Below, piece by piece: positions 22,734-33,962 of a stretch of 40,144 bases of DNA (within the stretch, counting starts at the first letter, position 1; each line of letters opens with the position of its first letter). Both the position numbers and the translations under genes were made by a program. The DNA lies in the NCBI GenBank assembly GCA_037481655.1, contig JBBFLF010000012.1, positions 1-40,144 of the forward strand, in the 5' to 3' direction. Source of the stretch: Desulfobaccales bacterium. GTDB taxonomy: Bacteria > Desulfobacterota > Desulfobaccia > Desulfobaccales > 0-14-0-80-60-11. The notes under the pieces were generated by a model. The model was not told where the DNA came from, ran no database searches, and saw only the letters and a program-made list of their open reading frames with translations.

Positions 22734-23597
22734 ATGAGCGGCTGGACGGACTTGGTGCAGTTCCTCTTTGCCGGGATCACGGCGGGGGCGATCTATGCCT
22801 TGGTGGCCCTGGGCTTTGGGGTGGTGCACAACACCATGGGCATTGTCAACTTCACCCAGGTGGATTTCGTCTCCCTGGGAGGCATGCTCCTCTATTCGGC
22901 CCTGAACGCCGGGGGGCTGCCGGCGCCGCTGGCCGTGGCGGCGGCGGTGGCAGGGGTGACGCTGATTGGCGCCCTGGTGGAGGTGCTGGGGGTGCGGCCC
23001 TCCCGCTCGGAGAGCCACCTGGTGCTCATCTTCCTCACCATTGGCCTGTCCATCATCCTCAGGGGCCTGATGAAGCTCATCTGGGGAAAGAACCGCCTGG
23101 CGGTGCCCCCCCTGGCGGGGGAGGCGGTCTGGAGCCTGGGCGGGGCCACCATCCTCACCCAGACGGTGTGGATCGTGATTCTCACCACTGTGGCCATAGT
23201 GGGGCTGAGGTGGTTTTTCCGGCACACCGACCTGGGCCTGGCCATGCGGGCGGTGGCCGCCAACGAGACTGCGGCGGCGGTGGTGGGCCTCAGGGTCTGG
23301 CGGGTGAAGGCCGCCAGCTTCGCCCTGGCCGGTGCCCTGGGAGGGCTGGCCGGGGCTCTGGTCACGCCCATCACCACCTTGGCCTACGATGTGGGGGTGC
23401 TGCTGGGCCTGAAAGGCTTTGCCGCCGCCATTTTGGGCGGGTTCGGCTCCTTTCCCGGCGCCATCGTGGGGGGGCTGATTCTGGGGCTTTTGGAAAGCCT
23501 GGCGGCGGGGTATCTCAGCAGCGCCTATAAGGATGTCCTGGCCTTCGTGGTATTGATGGGGGTGCTGTTTGTGCGGCCCCGGGGACTTTTGGGATAA
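22734..23597 (+). CDS. livH: Branched-chain amino-acid ABC transporter permease LivH
   Basis: A 287-aa inner-membrane permease with about eight helices. Family features are GAIYALVALGFGVVHNTMGIVNFTQ near the N-terminus, the cytoplasmic EAA-like loop TDLGLAMRAVAANETAAAVVGL that contacts the ATPases, and GLKGFAAAILGGFGSFPGAIVGGLILG near the C-terminus. With LivM it forms the membrane channel for hydrophobic amino acids or related acids. It is the first gene of the composite transport/oxidation locus; livM lies five genes downstream. Confidence 0.9.
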   Translation: MSGWTDLVQFLFAGITAGAIYALVALGFGVVHNTMGIVNFTQVDFVSLGGMLLYSALNAGGLPAPLAVAAAVAGVTLIGALVEVLGVRPSRSESHLVLIFLTIGLSIILRGLMKLIWGKNRLAVPPLAGEAVWSLGGATILTQTVWIVILTTVAIVGLRWFFRHTDLGLAMRAVAANETAAAVVGLRVWRVKAASFALAGALGGLAGALVTPITTLAYDVGVLLGLKGFAAAILGGFGSFPGAIVGGLILGLLESLAAGYLSSAYKDVLAFVVLMGVLFVRPRGLLG

Positions 23598-23692: not shown

Positions 23693-23786
23693 CTTCAGCG
23701 GCCAATGGCGATGGCAGAATCGGACGTGATAGCGGCGGTGCCAGGGTTCCCCAGCCAGCACCTTGCCGACACCTCAGGAGGGCATC

Positions 23787-24092
23787 ATGGGGCCGGACGG
23801 CGTTTCCTTGCTGGCCTTGGTTGAGACCCAGGACCTGTTCCGCCAACGGTATTTTGCCGACGCCAGCCTCGGTGAAGAAAGCCGGGTCCTGGAAGGGCTG
23901 CTAAGCGGCCTGGACAGCCTGTTTGCCCTGTTTCAGGGCGCGGGGCCGGTGGTGGATCTGAATCAGGAGGCAGCGGCGGAAATCATGGATTATTTTCTGC
24001 AGGAATCGTATCGCCACCGGGAATCCAACCCGGAGGTCTCCCTCTGGTATCTGGCCTGGGCCAGCACCCTGGAGCAGTATTTTCTGCCATGA
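23787..24092 (+). CDS. 101-aa hypothetical protein between livH and iorA
   Basis: AGGAGG five bases before the ATG and a four-base overlap (ATGA) with iorA show that this is a real, translationally coupled gene. The protein is acidic and helical, with no signal peptide or cysteines (VETQDLFRQRYFADASLGE; EAAAEIMDYFLQESYRH; SLWYLAWASTLEQYFLP). I recognise no family. Its placement suggests it works with IorAB, for instance as an accessory or assembly factor, but this is inference. Confidence 0.75.
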   Translation: MGPDGVSLLALVETQDLFRQRYFADASLGEESRVLEGLLSGLDSLFALFQGAGPVVDLNQEAAAEIMDYFLQESYRHRESNPEVSLWYLAWASTLEQYFLP

Positions 24093-25948
24093 CTGCCCAA
24101 TCCAGCTCTCAATCTGCCCTTTCTGCGGCGGTGGGGTCTGAACGCCTGCTTTTGGGAAATGAAGCCATCGGCCGGGCCTTGGTGGAAGGTGGCGTCACCC
24201 TGGCGGCCTCCTACCCCGGCACCCCGGCCTCGGAGATCCTGGCGGCGGTGGTGGCCGCAGCTCAAGAGACCGGGGCAAAAGTCCACGCCGAGTGGAGCCT
24301 CAACGAAAAGGTGGCCTTCGAGACTGCCCTGGCCAACGCCATGTGCGGCCGACGGTCGGCGGTGGCCATGAAGCAGGTGGGGCTGAATGTGGCGGCGGAC
24401 CCCTTTTTCCGGGCGGCCTACCTGGGGGTGACGGGGGGCTTCCTGGTGGTGGCGGCCGACGACCCCGGTCCCCACAGCTCCCAGACGGAGCAGGACAGCC
24501 GCCTCCTGGCTCTGGCGGCCCAGGTGCCGGTCCTGGACCCCTTCGACCCCCGGGAAGCCCGGGAGATGGTACATGTGGGCCTTTTGCTTTCCGAGCGCTA
24601 TGAGTTGCCGGTGATGCTCAGGCCCACCACCCGGGTCTGCCATGCCCGGCAGAATCTGCCGCTGGGGGAGGTGGTCTCCTGGGAGCGGCCGGCCCGGTTC
24701 GTCAAGGATCCCGGGCGCTGGGCCGCCACCCCGGTGTTTGTCCGGGACCTGCACCGGCGGCTGAATGACAAGCTGGCAGCCATTGCCCGGGAGGCGGAGT
24801 GGACGCCGGATTTTCTGCCCGGAGACGGCCGCCGGCCGGAAAAGTGCATCGTGGCCTCAGGGGTGGCGGCGGCCCATGCCCTGGATATGCTGACGGAGCT
24901 TAAGGCCGCAGGCCAGGTGGATTTCTACCGGGTGAAGATGCCCTTTCCCCTGCATCAGCCCTGGGTGGAGCAGGTCCTGGGCACGTATGGGGAGATCCTG
25001 GTCCTGGAAGAGACTGCGCCGGTCATCGAGTTGCAACTGGGGCTGGGAAGGGTGAAAGGCCGGGCCACAGGCACGGTGCCGGGACAGGGTGAGCTCACCC
25101 CTGAGGTCCTGGGCCGGGTGCTGGCCGGTTTCCTGGGACTGACGGCCCCGGAGGCGCCTGCCCCGGCCGCGGGCGGCGTCCGCCCCTCTCTGTGTCCCGG
25201 CTGCGGCCATCGGGGGGTCTTCTATGCCATCCGGGAAACCTTCCCCGAGGGCATCTTTCCCAGCGACATCGGCTGCTACACCCTGGGCATCAATCTCCAG
25301 GCGGTGGACACCTGCCACTGCATGGGGGCGGGCATCAGCCAGGCGGCGGGATTTTATCACGCCTACGCCGCCGGGGGGGATTTCCCCCCCATTGTGGCCA
25401 CCATCGGCGACTCCACTTTTTATCATGCCGGGATACCGGCCCTGATCAACGCAGTGTTTCACCGGGCCCGCTTTATCCTGGTGATCCTGGACAACCAGAC
25501 CACCGCCATGACCGGGCACCAGCCCACGCCGGCGCTGGGCATCACGGCCCAGGGTCTGCCGGCCACGCCGGTGCCCCTGCCGGAGTTGCTCCGGGCCTGC
25601 GGAGTCACGTTCCTGCGGGAGGTGGAGGCTTACAACCTCCCGGAGGTTAAGGATATTCTCCTGGAAGCGGACCGATTTTGCCGCTCGCCGGAGGGGGGCG
25701 TGGCGGTGATCATCGCCCGGCATCCCTGCCTTCTGACGCCGGAGGGGCGCCGTCAGCCCCGCTACCGGGTGCGGGTAACGGAGGAGTGCATCGGGTGCGG
25801 CCACTGCCTGGAGGCCTTTGAATGCCGGGGGCTTAAATGGGAGGAGGCCGAGGGGCGGGCCGCCATTGACCCGGTCACCTGTGCGGGCTGCGGGGTCTGC
25901 GTGCATGTCTGCCCCGCCGGAGCCATCGAGTCGGAAAGTGGGGACTGA
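24089..25948 (+). CDS. iorA: Indolepyruvate ferredoxin oxidoreductase, alpha subunit
   Basis: A 619-aa thiamine-diphosphate enzyme subunit. With IorB it oxidatively decarboxylates aryl-2-oxo acids (indolepyruvate, phenylpyruvate) to aryl-acetyl-CoA and reduces ferredoxin, in anaerobes that ferment or respire amino acids. The pyrimidine-binding domain begins with SYPGTPASEIL (42-52). The TPP domain has CPGCGHRG (369-376) and GDSTFYHAGIPALINAVFH with LDNQTTAMTG from about 440. The C-terminus is a ferredoxin module with two cluster motifs, CIGCGHCLEAFEC (567-579) and CAGCGVCVHVCPAGAIE (from 598). Length and domains are complete. It is coupled to the genes on both sides. Confidence 0.93.
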   Translation: MTAQSSSQSALSAAVGSERLLLGNEAIGRALVEGGVTLAASYPGTPASEILAAVVAAAQETGAKVHAEWSLNEKVAFETALANAMCGRRSAVAMKQVGLNVAADPFFRAAYLGVTGGFLVVAADDPGPHSSQTEQDSRLLALAAQVPVLDPFDPREAREMVHVGLLLSERYELPVMLRPTTRVCHARQNLPLGEVVSWERPARFVKDPGRWAATPVFVRDLHRRLNDKLAAIAREAEWTPDFLPGDGRRPEKCIVASGVAAAHALDMLTELKAAGQVDFYRVKMPFPLHQPWVEQVLGTYGEILVLEETAPVIELQLGLGRVKGRATGTVPGQGELTPEVLGRVLAGFLGLTAPEAPAPAAGGVRPSLCPGCGHRGVFYAIRETFPEGIFPSDIGCYTLGINLQAVDTCHCMGAGISQAAGFYHAYAAGGDFPPIVATIGDSTFYHAGIPALINAVFHRARFILVILDNQTTAMTGHQPTPALGITAQGLPATPVPLPELLRACGVTFLREVEAYNLPEVKDILLEADRFCRSPEGGVAVIIARHPCLLTPEGRRQPRYRVRVTEECIGCGHCLEAFECRGLKWEEAEGRAAIDPVTCAGCGVCVHVCPAGAIESESGD

Positions 25949-25952
25949 GACC

Positions 25953-26474
25953 ATGCGGCAGCAGATCATTGTCAGCGGCGTGGGCGGGCAAGGCGCGGTG
26001 ACTCTGACCCGCTGGCTGGGGGAGGCGGCGATGGCTTTAGGGGTGCCCGTCCTCACCTCCGAAACCCACGGCATGGCCCAGCGGGGGGGCACGGTGATCT
26101 CCATGGTGAAGGTGGGTGGGTATCACGGGCCCCTTGTCCCCTGGGGCGCGGCGGATGTGGGCCTCTTTCTTCGGGAGGACAATCTGGCGGTGCACGGCGG
26201 TTACCTCAAAGCCGCAGGGGTAGCGGTGGTCAACACCCCGAATCCGGGGCCCTATCTGGGAATTGACGCTTTGGGGATAGCCCTGGGGCTGGGACTGAAG
26301 CCAGTCACCGCCAATCTGGTGCTGCTGGGCTATGCCGCCGGCCAAGGGGTGCTCTTCTGCGGCGCCGAGGTCCTGGGAGAGGTGATCCGGACTCACACGC
26401 CGGCGCGCTTTGTGGAGGACAGTCTGAAGGCCTTCGGGGCCGGGATGGCGGCGGCCCGGGAGGGGGGCGGGTGA
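25953..26474 (+). CDS. iorB: Indolepyruvate oxidoreductase, beta (gamma-type) subunit
   Basis: A 173-aa 2-oxoacid:acceptor oxidoreductase gamma-type domain, partner of IorA. Diagnostic motifs are IIVSGVGGQGAVTLTRWLGEA, which packs on the cofactor region, and TSETHGMAQRGGTVISMVK. It is slightly shorter than typical IorB (about 190 aa) but looks complete. The ATG at 25953 follows the iorA stop by four bases; the frame is open upstream but that part is iorA. It ends in a GTGA overlap with livM. Confidence 0.9.
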   Translation: MRQQIIVSGVGGQGAVTLTRWLGEAAMALGVPVLTSETHGMAQRGGTVISMVKVGGYHGPLVPWGAADVGLFLREDNLAVHGGYLKAAGVAVVNTPNPGPYLGIDALGIALGLGLKPVTANLVLLGYAAGQGVLFCGAEVLGEVIRTHTPARFVEDSLKAFGAGMAAAREGGG

Positions 26475-27481
26475 GGGTCTCGCCCCGGCAGCGGCTGTGG
26501 TGGTTTGTGCTCCGGCACCGCACCGGCCTTACGGTGTGGCTGGTGGCGGCGCTTTTGGCCCTGGTGCCCCTTTTGATCCGCAATCCCTACCAGCTTGGCC
26601 TGATCAATCTCATCGGCATCTATGCCGTGGCGGTGTTGGGGCTCAATCTGTTCATCGGCTATGCCGGGCAGATTTCCCTGGGTCATGCGGGATTTTTCGG
26701 CCTGGGGGCCTATGGTTCGGCAATCCTGACGGTGCACGGCTGGCTTTCGCCTTGGCCCGCCCTCCTTCTCACCGCCGCGTTGGTGGCCGGCTGGGCGCTC
26801 CTCCTGGGCATTCCTACCCTGAGGCTGCATGGCCATTATCTGGCCATGGCCACCTTGGGCTTCAACTACATCGTGCACCTGGTGCTGGTGCAATGGGATG
26901 CGGTGACCGGGGGGCCCAGCGGCATCTCCGGGATTCCGCCCCTGGGGCTGGCCGGGTTAGCCTTCGACAACGAGACCCGTTTTTTTTATCTGGTGTGGGC
27001 CTTGGTCCTTTTGGGAGTGACCGCCTGCCTCAATCTGATGCGCAGCGGGGTGGGCCGGGGGCTGGCGGCACTGGCCCAGGATGAGGTGGCCGCAGCCACC
27101 CTGGGGGTGAATGTGAGGCGGGAGAAGGTGCGCATCTTTGTCCTCTCCGCGGTCTTCGCCTCCGTGGCGGGAAGCCTCTATGCCCATTATTATCATTACG
27201 TCAACCCCGACGGCTTCAGCATCTTCAAATCCCTGGACCTGGTGATCATGGTGGTGGTGGGGGGCCTGGGCTCGGTGTGGGGGACGCTTTTGGGGGTGAC
27301 CTTTGTCACCCTGCTCCCCTACTATCTGGAGTTCCTGGAGGCCTATTTCGACCTGATTCACGGCCTTATTCTAGTGCTCATTCTCATGTTTCTGCCCCAG
27401 GGGCTGGTGACCGGCCTCTGGGATCACCTTAAGCTGACCTTAGCCAGGAGGCGCCTGGTGGCCAGGGGGGAGACCCCATGA
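26471..27481 (+). CDS. livM: Branched-chain amino-acid ABC transporter permease LivM
   Basis: A 336-aa permease with about nine to ten helices, pairing with LivH. Diagnostic stretches are NLFIGYAGQISLGHAGFFGLGAYGSAIL, the HYLAMATLGFNYIVHLVL block, the SGVGRGLAALAQDEVAAATLGVNV loop that docks the ATPase, and VVVGGLGSVWGTLLGVTFVTLLP. The start is a GTG at 26471 overlapping the iorB stop (GTGA), and the stop overlaps livG (ATGA). Being sandwiched by iorB and livG puts transporter and oxidoreductase under one control. Confidence 0.91.
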   Translation: MRVSPRQRLWWFVLRHRTGLTVWLVAALLALVPLLIRNPYQLGLINLIGIYAVAVLGLNLFIGYAGQISLGHAGFFGLGAYGSAILTVHGWLSPWPALLLTAALVAGWALLLGIPTLRLHGHYLAMATLGFNYIVHLVLVQWDAVTGGPSGISGIPPLGLAGLAFDNETRFFYLVWALVLLGVTACLNLMRSGVGRGLAALAQDEVAAATLGVNVRREKVRIFVLSAVFASVAGSLYAHYYHYVNPDGFSIFKSLDLVIMVVVGGLGSVWGTLLGVTFVTLLPYYLEFLEAYFDLIHGLILVLILMFLPQGLVTGLWDHLKLTLARRRLVARGETP

Positions 27482-28266
27482 CCGGGCCGGCGGGGCCGCC
27501 CCTGCTGGAAATCCAGCGGCTGAGCAAGAATTTCGGGGGCGTGCCGGCCTTGGCGGAGGTGAGTTTCCCCGTCATCCGGGGGGCCGTGACCGCCCTCATC
27601 GGGCCCAACGGCGCCGGCAAGACCACTCTCATCAACTGCCTCACCGGGGTGGTGCGGCCGGACGGCGGCAGCATCCGCTTTCAGGGCCGGGAGCTGGTAG
27701 GCCTGGCGCCCCATGAGATCGCCGCCCTGGGGATTGCCCGCACCTTCCAAAACCTGCGCCTCTTTCCCCGGCTGACGGTGCTGGACAATGTGCTTTTGGG
27801 GCTCACACCCCAGGCCGGGGGTTCCCTCTGGGAGGCGCTGCTGCGGACGCCGGGGCTGCGGCATCGGGAGCGGCGCCTGAAGCTGGCCGCGCTGGAAGCC
27901 CTGGACGCCTTCGGGCTGGGGGGAAAAGCCGACTGGCCGGCGGGGATTCTCCCCTACGGCGACAAAAAGCGCCTGGAGATGGCCCGGGTCTTTGTCTCCC
28001 AGCCTGCCTTGGCGCTGTTGGATGAGCCGGTGGCCGGGCTCAATTCCCAGGAGACCGGGGAGGTGGCGGCGCTTATCCGCCAGCTCCAGCGTCAGGGCCG
28101 CACGTTGCTGCTGGTGGAGCACGACATGGAGCTGGTCATGGGGGTGAGCGACGTGGTGGTGGTGCTGGACGGCGGCCGGCGCATCGCCCTGGGCCCCCCC
28201 GAGGAGGTGCAGCGGGACCCCCGGGTGCTGGAGGCGTATCTGGGCCGCATGAGCGTGACGGCTTGA
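27478..28266 (+). CDS. livG: Branched-chain amino-acid ABC transporter ATPase LivG
   Basis: A 262-aa ATP-binding subunit. Walker A is GPNGAGKTTL (from 42), the Q-loop region carries IARTFQNLRLFPRLTVLDNVLLG, and the signature is diverged to LPYGDKKRLEMARVF, typical of LivG. Walker B is ALLDEPVAGLNSQE and the H-loop LLLVEHDMELVM. It forms the heterodimeric motor with LivF, whose gene lies about 2 kb further downstream after unrelated genes. Confidence 0.92.
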   Translation: MTGPAGPPLLEIQRLSKNFGGVPALAEVSFPVIRGAVTALIGPNGAGKTTLINCLTGVVRPDGGSIRFQGRELVGLAPHEIAALGIARTFQNLRLFPRLTVLDNVLLGLTPQAGGSLWEALLRTPGLRHRERRLKLAALEALDAFGLGGKADWPAGILPYGDKKRLEMARVFVSQPALALLDEPVAGLNSQETGEVAALIRQLQRQGRTLLLVEHDMELVMGVSDVVVVLDGGRRIALGPPEEVQRDPRVLEAYLGRMSVTA

Positions 28267-28267
28267 G

Positions 28268-28385
28268 GTGGGAGAGGGGGCCAGGGAGCGCCGCCCCCTG
28301 CCCCTCTCCCACGCCCTCTCCCCCCACCCCATATAAGGGGTTGGGGGGCGGGCCAAGGGAGCTGCCGCTCCCCCGGACTCCCCGC
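28268..28385. repeat. Two tandem copies of the intergenic palindrome family
   Basis: Copy A (28268-28312): GTGGGAGAGGGG pairs perfectly with CCCCTCTCCCAC around GCCAGGGAGCGCCGCCCCCTG. Copy B (28341-28385): GGGCCAAGGGAGC-TGCC-GCTCCCCCGGACTCCCC. Between them CCCCCCACCCC-ATATAA-GGGGTTGGGGGG is a further inverted repeat (about 28319-28348). It begins two bases after the livG stop, so it may mark the 3' end of that transcript, but no T-run is present. This is the best-preserved locus of the family in the window. Confidence 0.65.
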
Positions 28386-28451
28386 ATAAATCATTCTGCC
28401 ATGCCCAAGGTAAGGCCAGCCTTCATTAGCAAACGGCCAAGGAAAGTAGAA

Positions 28452-29303
<852 letters not shown>

Positions 29304-29317
29304 GGAGGTAAAGAGGA

Positions 29318-29674
29318 ATGAGCAGGTTTCTCTTTGTCTTGACCCGGGGCCCGGAGGACCCCACCCGGGCGGTGCGCTGTTTCCAATTTGCCAAAATCGC
29401 CGCCGATCAGGGCCATGAGGTGACGGTCTTTCTGGTGGATGACGCGGTCTATTTCACCAACCTGTCCCTGGCGGAGCGCATCAAGGCGCCCACCGGGGAT
29501 GAGCTCATGGGTTACTGGAAGTTTCTGGTGGACAAGGGGGCCCCGATCCTGGTGTGCAAGCCCTGCGCCGAGGCCCGGCTGGTGGGGGAGGAGGACCTGC
29601 CCCCGGGCTGCAAGATCGGCACCGGGGTGACCCTGATCCAGATCGCCGCGGAGGCCCAGGTCTTCACCTTCTAA
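29318..29674 (+). CDS. DsrE-family small sulfur-relay-like protein
   Basis: A 118-aa DsrE/DsrF/YchN-fold protein: FLFVLTRGPEDPTRAVRCFQFAKIAADQGHEVTVFLVDDAVYF then GAPILVCKPCAEARLVGEEDLPPG with a Cys pair where sulfur-carrier Cys residues occur, and an ending VTLIQIAAEAQVFTF. AGGAGG plus GAGGA precede the ATG. It sits 14 nt after the glycosylase gene. Members bind persulfides or act in redox sulfur transfer; the role of this one is unknown. Confidence 0.82.
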   Translation: MSRFLFVLTRGPEDPTRAVRCFQFAKIAADQGHEVTVFLVDDAVYFTNLSLAERIKAPTGDELMGYWKFLVDKGAPILVCKPCAEARLVGEEDLPPGCKIGTGVTLIQIAAEAQVFTF

Positions 29675-29790: not shown

Positions 29791-30006
29791 TCAGTTACTC
29801 ATGGGCACCGGCTGATAATACGCCGAGCCGCCGCCCCACCAGGTGAGTTTATAGCGCTCGCCTTTGTAAACGATGTAGGGTTGCACCCAAAGGATCACCC
29901 GCTCAATCAGGCGGCCGTGATAGGGGTGGGAGAAGACTGCGGTGACCACCTTGTCCGGGTCCACAGAAGGGGCTCCCAGGGTGTCGACGCCATATTCCGT
30001 CAGCAT
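29791..30006 (-). CDS. 71-aa hypothetical protein, stand-alone unit
   Basis: An ATG at 30006 preceded by AAGGAGAGG, a candidate promoter about 115 nt upstream and a good terminator after the stop make this a convincing single-gene transcription unit, antiparallel to its neighbours. The protein is soluble, rich in Tyr, Val, Pro and Trp (VILWVQPYIVYKGERYKLTWWGGGSAYYQPVP), with a beta-strand-rich look, no cysteine and no signal peptide. I do not recognise a family. Confidence 0.72.
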   Translation of the reverse strand: MLTEYGVDTLGAPSVDPDKVVTAVFSHPYHGRLIERVILWVQPYIVYKGERYKLTWWGGGSAYYQPVPMSN

Positions 30007-30024
30007 ACTGCCTCTCCTTGCCGG

Positions 30025-30081
30025 GTCTGTATCGTGGCTTACCGGGGCGGACGCGCCCGGCAGTCGTATGTGACTTACCGG
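30025..30081 (-). repeat. Direct repeat pair in the leader of the 71-aa gene
   Basis: Read on the minus strand the leader contains CCGGTAAGTCACATACGAC (30081-30063) and CCGGTAAGCCACGATACAGAC (30045-30025), about 80% alike and 36 nt apart. Each is followed by CCGG, and the upstream copy can fold as CCGG-TA-AGTC-ACATAC-GACT-G-CCGG. Tandem structured units in a leader could be an RNA element or a double protein site. Confidence 0.5.
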
Positions 30082-30125
30082 CTTGCTTAAGGTCAACTGC
30101 CGTTTCTTTTCCGGCTGTTCCCTTT

Positions 30126-30206: not shown

Positions 30207-30235
30207 TTGTCAGGGGGCCGGCCGCCGTTTATAAT
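30207..30235 (+). promoter_or_regulatory. Near-consensus sigma70 promoter for livF-paaK
   Basis: TTGTCA (30207-30212), an exactly 17-base spacer, and TATAAT (30230-30235). The expected start near 30242 lies only about five bases before the ATG at 30247, so the mRNA would be nearly leaderless, which fits the absence of any ribosome binding site there. Confidence 0.6.
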
Positions 30236-30246
30236 CCCCTCAGACC

Positions 30247-32355
30247 ATGCCAGCGACCACCTCCCCTTTCCTGCTGGAGCTTCAGGACCTGACGGTGCAT
30301 TACGGCGCGGCCCAGGCGCTTTTCGGGGTCTCCCTGGGGGTGCGCCCGGGGGAGACCGTGGCGCTGGTGGGGGCCAACGGCGCGGGCAAAAGCACCCTGC
30401 TCAAGGCCATCATGGGGCTGGTGCCGGTGTCCGGCGGCCGCATCCTCCTCATGGGCCGGGAGATCACTGGGACTTCGCCGGCGGCGCTGGCCGCAGCGGG
30501 GGTGGCCCTGGTGCCCGAAGGCCGGGAGATGTTCGGGGACCTCACGGTGCGGGAGAACCTGGAGCTGGGGGCCCTGCCCCTGAAGGTGAGCCGCCGGGAG
30601 CGGCTGGCCCGCCTGGAGCAGGTGCTGGCCCGCTTTCCCCGGCTGGCGGAGCGCCTGGAGCAGCCCACCGCCACCCTTTCCGGGGGCGAGCAGCAGATGG
30701 TGGCCTTGGGGCGGGCCCTCATGGCCCAGCCCCGGTTGCTCCTGATGGATGAACCCAGCCTGGGGCTGGCGCCGTTGGTGGCGGATGAGATCTTCGACAT
30801 CATCCATCAGCTGGCCCGGGCCGGGGTGACCATCCTCTTAGTGGAGCAGAACGCCGCCCGGGCCCTCACCGCCTCCCGCCGGGCGTATCTCCTGGCCAAC
30901 GGCCGCCTGGTGGGCCAGGGGGAGAGCGAACGCCTGCTCGTGGATCCGGAGCTGCGCCGGGCCTTCCTGGGCGCGGCCAGCGCCGACAACCCTGCGGCCA
31001 GCCGGCTGGGCGCCGCGGGTCTGACCAATATCCGTCTGGTGAAACCTGCCATGACCAAGACATTCATGCCCTCTTTCCGCACCGTGGAGGAGCTTCGGGC
31101 CCACCAGTTGGCGGGGCTGAAGTGGACGGTGCACCATGCCTACGAAGGCTCCCCCTTTTATCGGGAGCGACTGGAGGCCGCGGGCATCCGGCCCGAGGAC
31201 ATCCGCTCCCTGGAGGACCTGCGGCGGTTGCCCTTCACCACCGGGGAGGATCTCCGGGACCATTACCCCTTTCCCTTGCGCTCGGTCCCCTTTGAGCAGA
31301 TTGTGCGCATCCACGCCTCCAGCGGCACCACGGGCAAACGGAAGATTCTGTGCTACACCCAGAAGGACGTGGATGACTGGGCCCACTTCTTTGCCCGGGC
31401 CTACGAGATGGCCGGGGTGACACCCCTGGACCGGGTGCAGATTGCGGTGGGCTACGGGGTGTGGACCGCGGGGGTGGGCTTTCAGGCGGGCTGCGAGCGC
31501 CTGGGGGCCATGGCCCTGCCGGTGGGCCCGGGGAACATCGACCTGCAGTGCGAATTCCTGGTGGACCTGCAAAGCACGGTGCTCTGCTGCACCGCCTCCA
31601 TGGGCCTGTTGATGGCGGAGGAGGTGCATCGCCGGGGCCTCACCGACAAGATCTTCCTCAAGAAGGTGATCTACGGCTCGGAGCGCTCCAGTGTGTCCAT
31701 GCGGCGCAAGATGTCGGAGCTGCTGGGCGGGGTGGAGCTCTTCGACATCCCAGGGCTGACGGAGCTCTACGGGCCCGGGACCGGCATTGAGTGTCCGCAC
31801 CACGACTGCATCCATTACTGGGCGGACTACTACATCCTGGAGATCGTGGATCCGGAGACCCTGGAGCCCCTGCCCGATGGGGAGTGGGGGGAAATGGTGG
31901 TGACGACTCTCTGCAAGGAAGCGGCGCCCCTCATCCGCTACCGCACCCGGGACATCACCCGCATCATTCCGGGCCCCTGCACCTGCGGCACCATTTTGCC
32001 CCGGCACTCCCGCATCCTGGGGCGCACCGACGACATGTTCAAGTTCCGGGGGGTGAACATCTACCCTTCCAGCATCGACCGCATCCTCTCTGACATCCCG
32101 GGGCTGGGGTCGGAGTATCAGGTGCATCTCAGCCGGGATGAAGGGGGCCGGGACCACATGCTCCTCAAGGTGGAGCGGGGCGAGGGGGTGGAGCCGGGCC
32201 GGATGGATGAGCTTTCCCGGGAGGTGCGCTACCGCATTAAACGCAAGCTGCTGGTGACGCCGGAGGTGGAGATTGTGCCGTACGGCGCGCTCCCCCGCTC
32301 GGAGCGCAAAAGCAGACGCATCTTTGATGAGCGCATCACCGATTCGGTGATTTGA
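30247..32355 (+). CDS. LivF-PaaK fusion: ABC ATPase joined to phenylacetate-CoA-ligase-like enzyme
   Basis: One 702-aa frame. Residues 1-240 are LivF, the second ATPase of the Liv importer: Walker A GANGAGKST (42-50), Q-loop and TVRENLELG, signature LSGGEQQMVALGRALM from 144, Walker B LLLMDEPSLGLAP, H-loop ILLVEQNAARAL. After a 27-residue linker, residues 269-702 form an AMP-forming arylacetate-CoA ligase: HASSGTTGKRKI from 357, LTELYGPGTGIEC, YRTRDITRII, GRTDDMFKFRGVNIYPS, and LPRSERKSRR with the catalytic Lys near 688. Both halves look complete. A Met at 269 (ATG 31051) could start a separate PaaK, but no stop intervenes. It links uptake and CoA activation of aryl acids. Confidence 0.9.
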   Translation: MPATTSPFLLELQDLTVHYGAAQALFGVSLGVRPGETVALVGANGAGKSTLLKAIMGLVPVSGGRILLMGREITGTSPAALAAAGVALVPEGREMFGDLTVRENLELGALPLKVSRRERLARLEQVLARFPRLAERLEQPTATLSGGEQQMVALGRALMAQPRLLLMDEPSLGLAPLVADEIFDIIHQLARAGVTILLVEQNAARALTASRRAYLLANGRLVGQGESERLLVDPELRRAFLGAASADNPAASRLGAAGLTNIRLVKPAMTKTFMPSFRTVEELRAHQLAGLKWTVHHAYEGSPFYRERLEAAGIRPEDIRSLEDLRRLPFTTGEDLRDHYPFPLRSVPFEQIVRIHASSGTTGKRKILCYTQKDVDDWAHFFARAYEMAGVTPLDRVQIAVGYGVWTAGVGFQAGCERLGAMALPVGPGNIDLQCEFLVDLQSTVLCCTASMGLLMAEEVHRRGLTDKIFLKKVIYGSERSSVSMRRKMSELLGGVELFDIPGLTELYGPGTGIECPHHDCIHYWADYYILEIVDPETLEPLPDGEWGEMVVTTLCKEAAPLIRYRTRDITRIIPGPCTCGTILPRHSRILGRTDDMFKFRGVNIYPSSIDRILSDIPGLGSEYQVHLSRDEGGRDHMLLKVERGEGVEPGRMDELSREVRYRIKRKLLVTPEVEIVPYGALPRSERKSRRIFDERITDSVI

Positions 32356-32801: not shown

Positions 32802-33962
32802 ATGCGGCGGTGGAGCATCCTCATTGCGGCGGTTCTGTTGGCGGCAGCTCTGGCTACGGGCCCGGCAGCGGCCGCGGAGCCCATCAAGATCGGGGCGTTC
32901 TTTGCCCTGTCCGGGCCTCAGGCCCACATCGGCACGCCCACCAAGCTGGTGGCGGAGCTGGCGGTGAAACGCATCAACGCCGCGGGCGGGATCAACGGCC
33001 GGCCCCTGGAGCTGGTGATGGGGGACACGGAGAGCGACCCGGCCAAGGCGGCCAGCATTGCCAAGAAATTCATCCACCAGGACAAGGTGGCGGCCATCAT
33101 CGGGCCCACCTCCACCGGCGAGGGCATGCAGGTGAAGAAGATCGTGGAGGAGGCGGGCATCCCCATCGTTATGACGGTGGGGGGCGATCCGCCCATCATG
33201 GCCGAAACCGGCCCCTTCACCTACATCTTCAAATCGCCCCAGCGCTCCTCCACCGCGGTGGCCCGCCTGTTTACCTATCTCAAAGACAAGAAACTCACCA
33301 AGCTGGGACTGATGTATGCCACCGACCCCTTCGGCAAAGACGGGGTGGGGTGGCTGAAGAAGCTGGCGCCGGAGTATGGGCTCACCTTTGTGGCGGAGGA
33401 GTCCTTCGGGCCCAAGGACATTGACATGACGGCCCAGCTCACCAAGATCAAAAACGCCCAGCCCGATGCCATCGTGGTCTGGACCGTGGGGCCGGCCGGG
33501 CCCATCATCGCCAAAAACAAGGCGCAGCTGGGGATCACCATCCCTCTCTTCCAGTGCCACGGCCAGCCGGATCCCAAATACATCGAGCTGGCGGGGCCGG
33601 CTTCCGAGGGCGACCGCATGCCGGCCACCAAGCTGATGGTGGCGGACGAGCTCCCTGACACCGACCCCCAGAAGAAGGTGATTCAGGATTTCATCAAGCT
33701 CTACAAAGAGGCGGGGCTGGACAAGCAGTTCCCCATCAACACCCACTCGGGGTATGCCTGGGATGCCGTCTATCTCATCACCAACGCCCTGAAAAAGGCG
33801 GGCACCGACCCCAAGAAGCTCCGGGAGGCCATTGAGCAGACCAAGGGCTACGTGGGGGTCTCCGGGATCTACAACCTGAGCCCGGAGGACCACAACGGCC
33901 TGGGGGTGGACTCCATGGTGATGGTGGAGGTGAAGGGGGGCAAGTTCACCCTGGCGAAATGA
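32802..33962 (+). CDS. livK: Periplasmic amino-acid-binding protein LivK type
   Basis: A 386-aa type I periplasmic binding protein. The signal peptide (residues 1-26, ending GPAAAAE) is cleaved, followed by IKIGAFFALSGPQAHIGTPTKLVAELAVKRINAAGGINGRPLELVMGD, the usual opening of Liv-type receptors. Middle blocks include AAIIGPTSTGEG, YATDPFGKDGV and VVWTVGPAGPIIAKNKAQLG. It captures the substrate for LivHMGF. Ligand cannot be read from the sequence; branched-chain or aromatic amino acids, or aryl acids, are all possible given the neighbours. AAGGAGGG sets the start. Confidence 0.92.
   Translation: MRRWSILIAAVLLAAALATGPAAAAEPIKIGAFFALSGPQAHIGTPTKLVAELAVKRINAAGGINGRPLELVMGDTESDPAKAASIAKKFIHQDKVAAIIGPTSTGEGMQVKKIVEEAGIPIVMTVGGDPPIMAETGPFTYIFKSPQRSSTAVARLFTYLKDKKLTKLGLMYATDPFGKDGVGWLKKLAPEYGLTFVAEESFGPKDIDMTAQLTKIKNAQPDAIVVWTVGPAGPIIAKNKAQLGITIPLFQCHGQPDPKYIELAGPASEGDRMPATKLMVADELPDTDPQKKVIQDFIKLYKEAGLDKQFPINTHSGYAWDAVYLITNALKKAGTDPKKLREAIEQTKGYVGVSGIYNLSPEDHNGLGVDSMVMVEVKGGKFTLAK

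Follow-up and report, generated by a model that had tools for sequence, protein, structure and literature searches.

Vectorial acylation is familiar from FadL/FadD, in which separate proteins act on fatty acyl substrates. A comparable coupling of transport to CoA activation is described for peroxisomal ABCD transporters and acyl-CoA synthetases, although these too are separate proteins with fatty acyl substrates (PMC4144768, PMC8201181), and the ABC transporters are of an unrelated type. Closer in its parts is the LivFGHMK/HAAT class of importers (e.g. E. coli Liv and R. palustris CouPSTU), which has the same subunit set as the operon reported here; HAAT binders of aromatic acids that adjoin CoA ligase genes are documented, and R. 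palustris encodes its p-coumarate CoA ligase alongside, as a gene of its own (PMC3223731). The PaaK-type ligases (PaaK1, 2y4n; BT_0428, 4r1l/4rvo) share fold, motifs and domain order with the ligase reported here. In Bacteroides an IOR lies beside an assayed AMP-forming arylacetate-CoA ligase and the enzyme pair is read as possibly biosynthetic, with aromatic amino acid synthesis proposed and no transporter mentioned (PMC13285125).

Importer, ligase and IOR genes meet in one operon of a Desulfobaccales bacterium (contig JBBFLF010000012.1), within the 40,144-nucleotide stretch analysed (hereafter the window). Here, in contrast to the known systems, the ligase is attached to the ABC ATPase in one chain, and both IorAB and the ligase are encoded in the importer operon (Table 1). 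The fusion of a LivF-type ATPase and a PaaK-like ligase is genuine and conserved. An ABC ATPase-ligase fusion is apparently undescribed so far, none having been found in the open-access literature searched.

Table 1. Features of the LivF::aryl-CoA ligase locus in window coordinates.
Feature	Coordinates	Strand	Evidence or remark
LivH-type permease	22734..23597	+	Conserved first operon gene in relatives
Protein of 109 aa with no Pfam family, located between LivH and IorA	23763-24092	+	Congeneric genomes only, among loci compared
IorA-like indolepyruvate ferredoxin oxidoreductase alpha subunit	24089..25948	+	TIGR03336, E 1e-181
IorB-like beta subunit	25953..26474	+	Start inferred from family alignment
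LivM-type permease	26471..27481	+	Profile matches
LivG-type ABC ATPase, presumed partner of fused LivF	27478..28266	+	Profile matches
Sigma-70-like promoter, TTGTCA-17-TATAAT	30207..30235	+	11/12 consensus matches; directly upstream of fusion ATG
LivF::aryl-CoA ligase fusion gene	30247..32355	+	702 aa, single open frame in ORF analysis of the window (702 codons; ATG at 30247, stop ending at 32355)
LivF-type ABC ATPase domain, residues 1-243	30247..30975	+	Pfam ABC_tran; E. coli LivF alignment; structural match 1ji0
Conserved linker, residues 244-268	30976..31050	+	Conservation; synonymous change; pLDDT <50 in model
Putative internal Shine-Dalgarno GGTGA (31038-31042) and ATG (31051-31053)	31036..31053	+	Codon-level constraint at columns 264-266, 36 fused genes
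PaaK-like AMP-forming aryl-CoA ligase domain, residues ~269-702	31051..32352	+	Pfam; structural matches 4rvo/4r1l (BT_0428), 2y4n (PaaK1)
LivK-type periplasmic binding protein, probably aromatic-acid specific	32802..33962	+	Sequence and structure matches

Pfam places ABC_tran at residues 27–171 (E 5e-31), AMP-binding at 347–553 and AMP-binding_C_2 at 602–696. The ATPase domain stops at the same point as E. coli LivF and, in alignment with it, has the LivF-type VPEGR and LVEQN segments and a C-terminus at AYLG/AFLG. Its Walker A (GANGAGKST, residues 42–50), signature (LSGGEQQ) and Walker B (LLLMDEPS) motifs are intact; so is the ligase P-loop (SSGTTGKRK, residues 358–366), which is accompanied by the AMP-binding core and by a C-terminal domain in which Lys688 falls, in alignment, on the C-terminal lysine of a PaaK ligase of known structure. 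A reading of the locus made earlier from sequence alone had proposed the fusion and two intact active sites; frame, Pfam domains and relatives bear out the former, and these motifs agree with the latter. The ATPase part scores 231.5 bits against an NCBIfam PRK11614 equivalog cut-off of 441 and is thus a LivF-type ATPase rather than an E. coli-type equivalog. The ligase part likewise scores well below the TIGR02155 PaaK equivalog cut-off (396 versus 646 bits) and is therefore filed as PaaK-like, and its acid may not be phenylacetate; it belongs to a subfamily of its own. Matches to solved PaaK-type members range from E 1e-98 to 1e-104, the closest being BT_0428 and PaaK1.

In the predicted structure the ATPase part is best matched by 1ji0 (Z 34.0, 240 residues aligned). 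The ligase part matches BT_0428 and PaaK1 entries with Z ~27–28 at an rmsd of 10–12, so that the arrangement inside this part of the model is poor. The whole-fusion model (pTM 0.52) has an unordered linker and so does not place the two domains relative to each other.

The fusion recurs in most relatives within the family and in other Thermodesulfobacteriota, across several orders. It is uninterrupted in 14 of the 22 family genomes, the source genome included, lies in pieces ending at contig edges or Ns in three, is out of frame at the junction in one (G018) and is absent from four; the sister family contributes one further genome with the fusion. In G018 (L088:7100-7960) a deletion of ~30 codons with a frame shift has removed most of the linker and left the putative internal start described below; the nearby LivK is likewise split, and the junction deletion may reflect an assembly fault or a real fission. 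Among the best 80 ligase relatives in named genomes 38 are fused, and these derive from Desulfobaccales, Desulfuromonadales, Desulfobulbaceae, Desulfocapsaceae, Desulfosarcina and Desulfomicrobiaceae, including the complete isolate genomes of Desulfosarcina alkanivorans and D. widdelii; Desulfofustis and Desulfomicrobium isolates carry it too. The sequence-only reading had suggested looking for the fusion in related genomes and had raised the prospect of separate genes there, joined here by a sequencing error; the relatives carry the same fusion, which rules out sequencing error or frameshift as its origin. A separate, adjacent livF and ligase pair does exist elsewhere in the source genome, as might be expected had assembly or sequencing error joined two neighbouring genes, but with the identical fusion and linker in dozens of independent assemblies, complete isolate genomes among them, such an error is hardly credible. 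That pair (L063, C11:6883-8673) consists of livF and a different PaaK-like gene in the same frame with a single TAA between them; the P-loop of its ligase is altered (SSPGTTERP). It has a pre-fusion arrangement and illustrates how such a fusion can arise.

Phylogenetically, the fused ligases group with a clade of standalone ligases with strong support (SH-aLRT 100), and inside this group there are about three switches between the fused and standalone states. The standalone clade, together with a ligase lacking the ATPase part from within Desulfosarcina (L124), falls beside or inside the fused clade, which indicates that tethering is dispensable. The nearest unfused members of the ligase's own subfamily are 66–78% identical. 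Just outside the fused group, the ligase L145 precedes a LivK of the type described here within a hydantoinase and molybdenum hydroxylase cluster, and related standalone ligases (L142, L145, L133) adjoin hydantoinase/oxoprolinase and molybdenum hydroxylase genes. This neighbourhood hints at another acid for the ligase family, and the cluster may reveal which acid the family uses.

The gene order LivH-IorA-IorB-LivM-LivG-[LivF::ligase]-LivK is recurrent, which upholds the earlier assignment of the fusion to a transporter operon. In the window and in ~20 relatives that operon has no LivF other than the fused one; some fused loci are without IorAB nearby. The IorA-like protein of the operon scores 605 bits, below the TIGR03336 cut-off of 651, and a second IorA of the source genome (on contig C23) passes with 732 bits. 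Within the source genus, MutY-like and DsrE-like genes (28263-29674, + strand) separate LivG from the fusion; other orders, with their compact operons, lack them there. A minus-strand open reading frame of 101 aa (29791-30096) lies between DsrE and the fusion. It reaches no Pfam cut-off, is accompanied by promoter-like (30153-30126) and terminator-like (29769-29747) sites and is kept near the fusion in relatives at 44–96% identity. In three congeneric genomes the two hexamers of the promoter preceding the fusion do not vary, whereas the spacer between them does. The expected transcription start is only ~5 bases before the fusion ATG, where there is no Shine-Dalgarno sequence; its mRNA may be almost leaderless. 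The region has no Rfam match.

LivK bears on the cargo. Its best matches by sequence and by structure are aromatic-acid binders, in keeping with that branch of the HAAT class, and those ranked highest by structure include proteins that bind p-coumarate, caffeate, 3-hydroxybenzoate and phenylpyruvate, although 4gnr, an amino-acid binder, comes within ~1 Z of the aromatic ones. The position of Glu226 in E. coli LivK, a residue that binds the ammonium group of the ligand in LivJ/LivK, is His in all 22 LivK orthologues, as it is in the solved R. palustris proteins 3sg0 and 3uk0. With the amine-binding Glu lacking and aromatic binders matching best, an aryl or aryl-oxo acid is a likelier cargo than an amino acid, and the adjacent IorAB points to the arylpyruvate/arylacetyl-CoA node. 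The earlier description of the system as an amino-acid importer is thus probably incorrect; of the two cargoes it had offered, aryl acids or their amino-acid precursors, aryl acids are the likelier.

The linker joining the two domains is more conserved than the average of either. The mean majority residue is 0.93 in its core (residues 248–268), compared with 0.785 for LivF and 0.841 for the ligase, and ~20 core residues are almost invariant across orders. Synonymous change exceeds non-synonymous change in every pairwise comparison made, which indicates that the junction is translated, and at residues 248–263 amino acids are conserved while synonymous change is mostly free. A strict pattern for the linker motif, whose count is accordingly a lower bound, matched 16 times in an even sample of 395 genomes of the phylum: 11 matches are known fused genes of the family, and the five outside it comprise four in fused genes and one out of context. 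Among these 395 genomes the motif is in no unfused livF or ligase gene, and its presence in fused genes only led us to reject the idea that the linker is a leftover tail of an unfused LivF. Residues 237–275 have no confident structure in the model, for which the alignment was shallow. We infer that the linker is a docking peptide that folds on a partner.

The end of the linker has a second signature. Met269 sits where standalone ligases begin, and codon 269 is ATG or TTG in 35 of the 36 aligned fused genes, with L085 having an ATG one codon away. Within the same 36 genes the codons preceding it are skewed beyond each gene's own usage: NTG for Leu264 ranks first of 67 Leu columns, GAG for Glu265 first of 34 and AAA for Lys266 first of 14. 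Constraint extends over codons 264–269, and nowhere in the gene is a window under stronger synonymous constraint than the one beginning at 265. These statistics are limited by the relatedness of the sequences, for which ranking against other columns of the same alignment is a partial control. The resulting pattern, TGGAGAAA-N6-ATG, resembles the leaders of standalone relatives (e.g. TTGGAGAGATTTT-ATG in L109). Five further fused genes (four outside the set and one partial) read CTG/TTG GAG AAA N6 ATG, and the partial members L076 and L079 have GAA instead of GAG. In the window, residue 265 of the fusion is Val (GTG); the sequence there becomes GGTGA, for which pairing with the 16S tail is still expected. 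Shine-Dalgarno pairing energy is not exceptional by itself (fourth of 14 start-like columns) and is not decisive alone; the codon-level tests argue against conservation of Met269 through protein conservation alone. From these codon patterns, two products of the gene are probable, the fusion and, via an internal start, a free ligase (residues 269–702); the linker seems to include the translated leader of a once-separate ligase gene with its ribosome site still kept. Linker conservation, operon conservation and the putative internal start all go beyond the sequence-only reading.

Together these features suggest transporter-anchored aryl-acid salvage with a tethered ligase, a reductive IorAB and an internal start for free ligase, a scheme to which we give about an even chance. 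LivK would bind an aryl or aryl-oxo acid in the periplasm, and LivH and LivM would carry it across the membrane with ATP hydrolysis supplied by LivG and the fused LivF. At the channel exit the LivF-tethered ligase would convert incoming arylacetate to its CoA thioester and so trap it by vectorial acylation, and the conserved internal ribosome site would yield untethered ligase from the same gene. IorAB would work at the same node, since arylacetyl-CoA is the shared product of ligase and IorAB, interconverting arylacetyl-CoA and arylpyruvate, most likely by reductive carboxylation that feeds aromatic amino acids. What the sequences show is the fusion, how widely it is kept, the linker, the operon and the constraint on codons; the substrate, the activity of the ligase, any association with the transporter, the flux direction and the use of the internal start are deduced. 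In the methanogen M. maripaludis, aromatic amino acids are reported to be made from aryl acids (cited in PMC4162585). The source genome encodes prephenate dehydratase and TrpB, which speaks against salvage being essential through missing de novo synthesis; salvage would be optional and would spare energy rather than fill a gap.

The same genes could serve catabolism, with imported aryl acids or arylpyruvates converted by the ligase and an oxidative IorAB to arylacetyl-CoA and degraded for energy. Desulfosarcina, to which several fusion carriers belong, has aromatic degraders among its members. Desulfococcus multivorans produces IorA3B3 when grown on phenylpyruvate, and the enzyme is read as oxidative, but the phenylacetate cluster of that organism has a TRAP importer instead (PMC5109826). 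AMP-forming ligases, moreover, favour CoA-ester formation (PMC13285125), and the 100%-complete source genome has no match to the BamA family (TIGR03200), not even from ordinary crotonases; no family member passes the TIGR03200 cut-off. Absence of this marker led us to reject benzoyl-CoA degradation in the source genome. Salvage is favoured because of the combination of IorAB, an AMP-forming ligase and no BamA marker, and we consider catabolism unlikely.

The tether itself could be of little consequence for transport, the fusion coupling only expression and amounts of a ligase that is soluble. Standalone relatives, one of them inside the fused clade, the free ligase that an internal start would already supply and the unstructured linker in the model all suit this idea; a passive tether should nevertheless drift, yet the linker core has hardly changed across orders, and the fused form is retained though the free form could be made alone. 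We regard it as improbable, to about the same degree as catabolism. Far less probable still is a ligase domain acting as a regulatory C-terminal sensor of aryl acid or aryl-CoA that shuts the importer, as in MetN and MalK: extra domains after the ABC core are known, and MetN and MalK entries are among the structural matches, but the catalytic motifs of the ligase are conserved and a pure sensor would not need them.

Tethering would place CoA activation on the cytoplasmic face of the importer, as had been proposed from the sequence and as the present comparisons support; vectorial acylation is a plausible idea with a firmer basis than before, and the predicted anatomy fits. Its most specific form, covalent vectorial acylation in a prokaryotic ABC aryl-acid importer with a conserved docking linker and an internal ribosome site making extra free ligase (one gene, two products), is tentative, and we put it at roughly one chance in three. 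Should this hold, an ABC importer and its cargo-activating enzyme would be one machine, and the coupling of transport to metabolism would be testable with a single polypeptide and simple mutants in which the linker is cut or the ligase or internal start is inactivated. A widespread operon, with transporter genes like those of branched-chain amino acid transport, would gain a substrate class, and sulfate reducers and their relatives would be expected to salvage aryl acids into aromatic amino acids.
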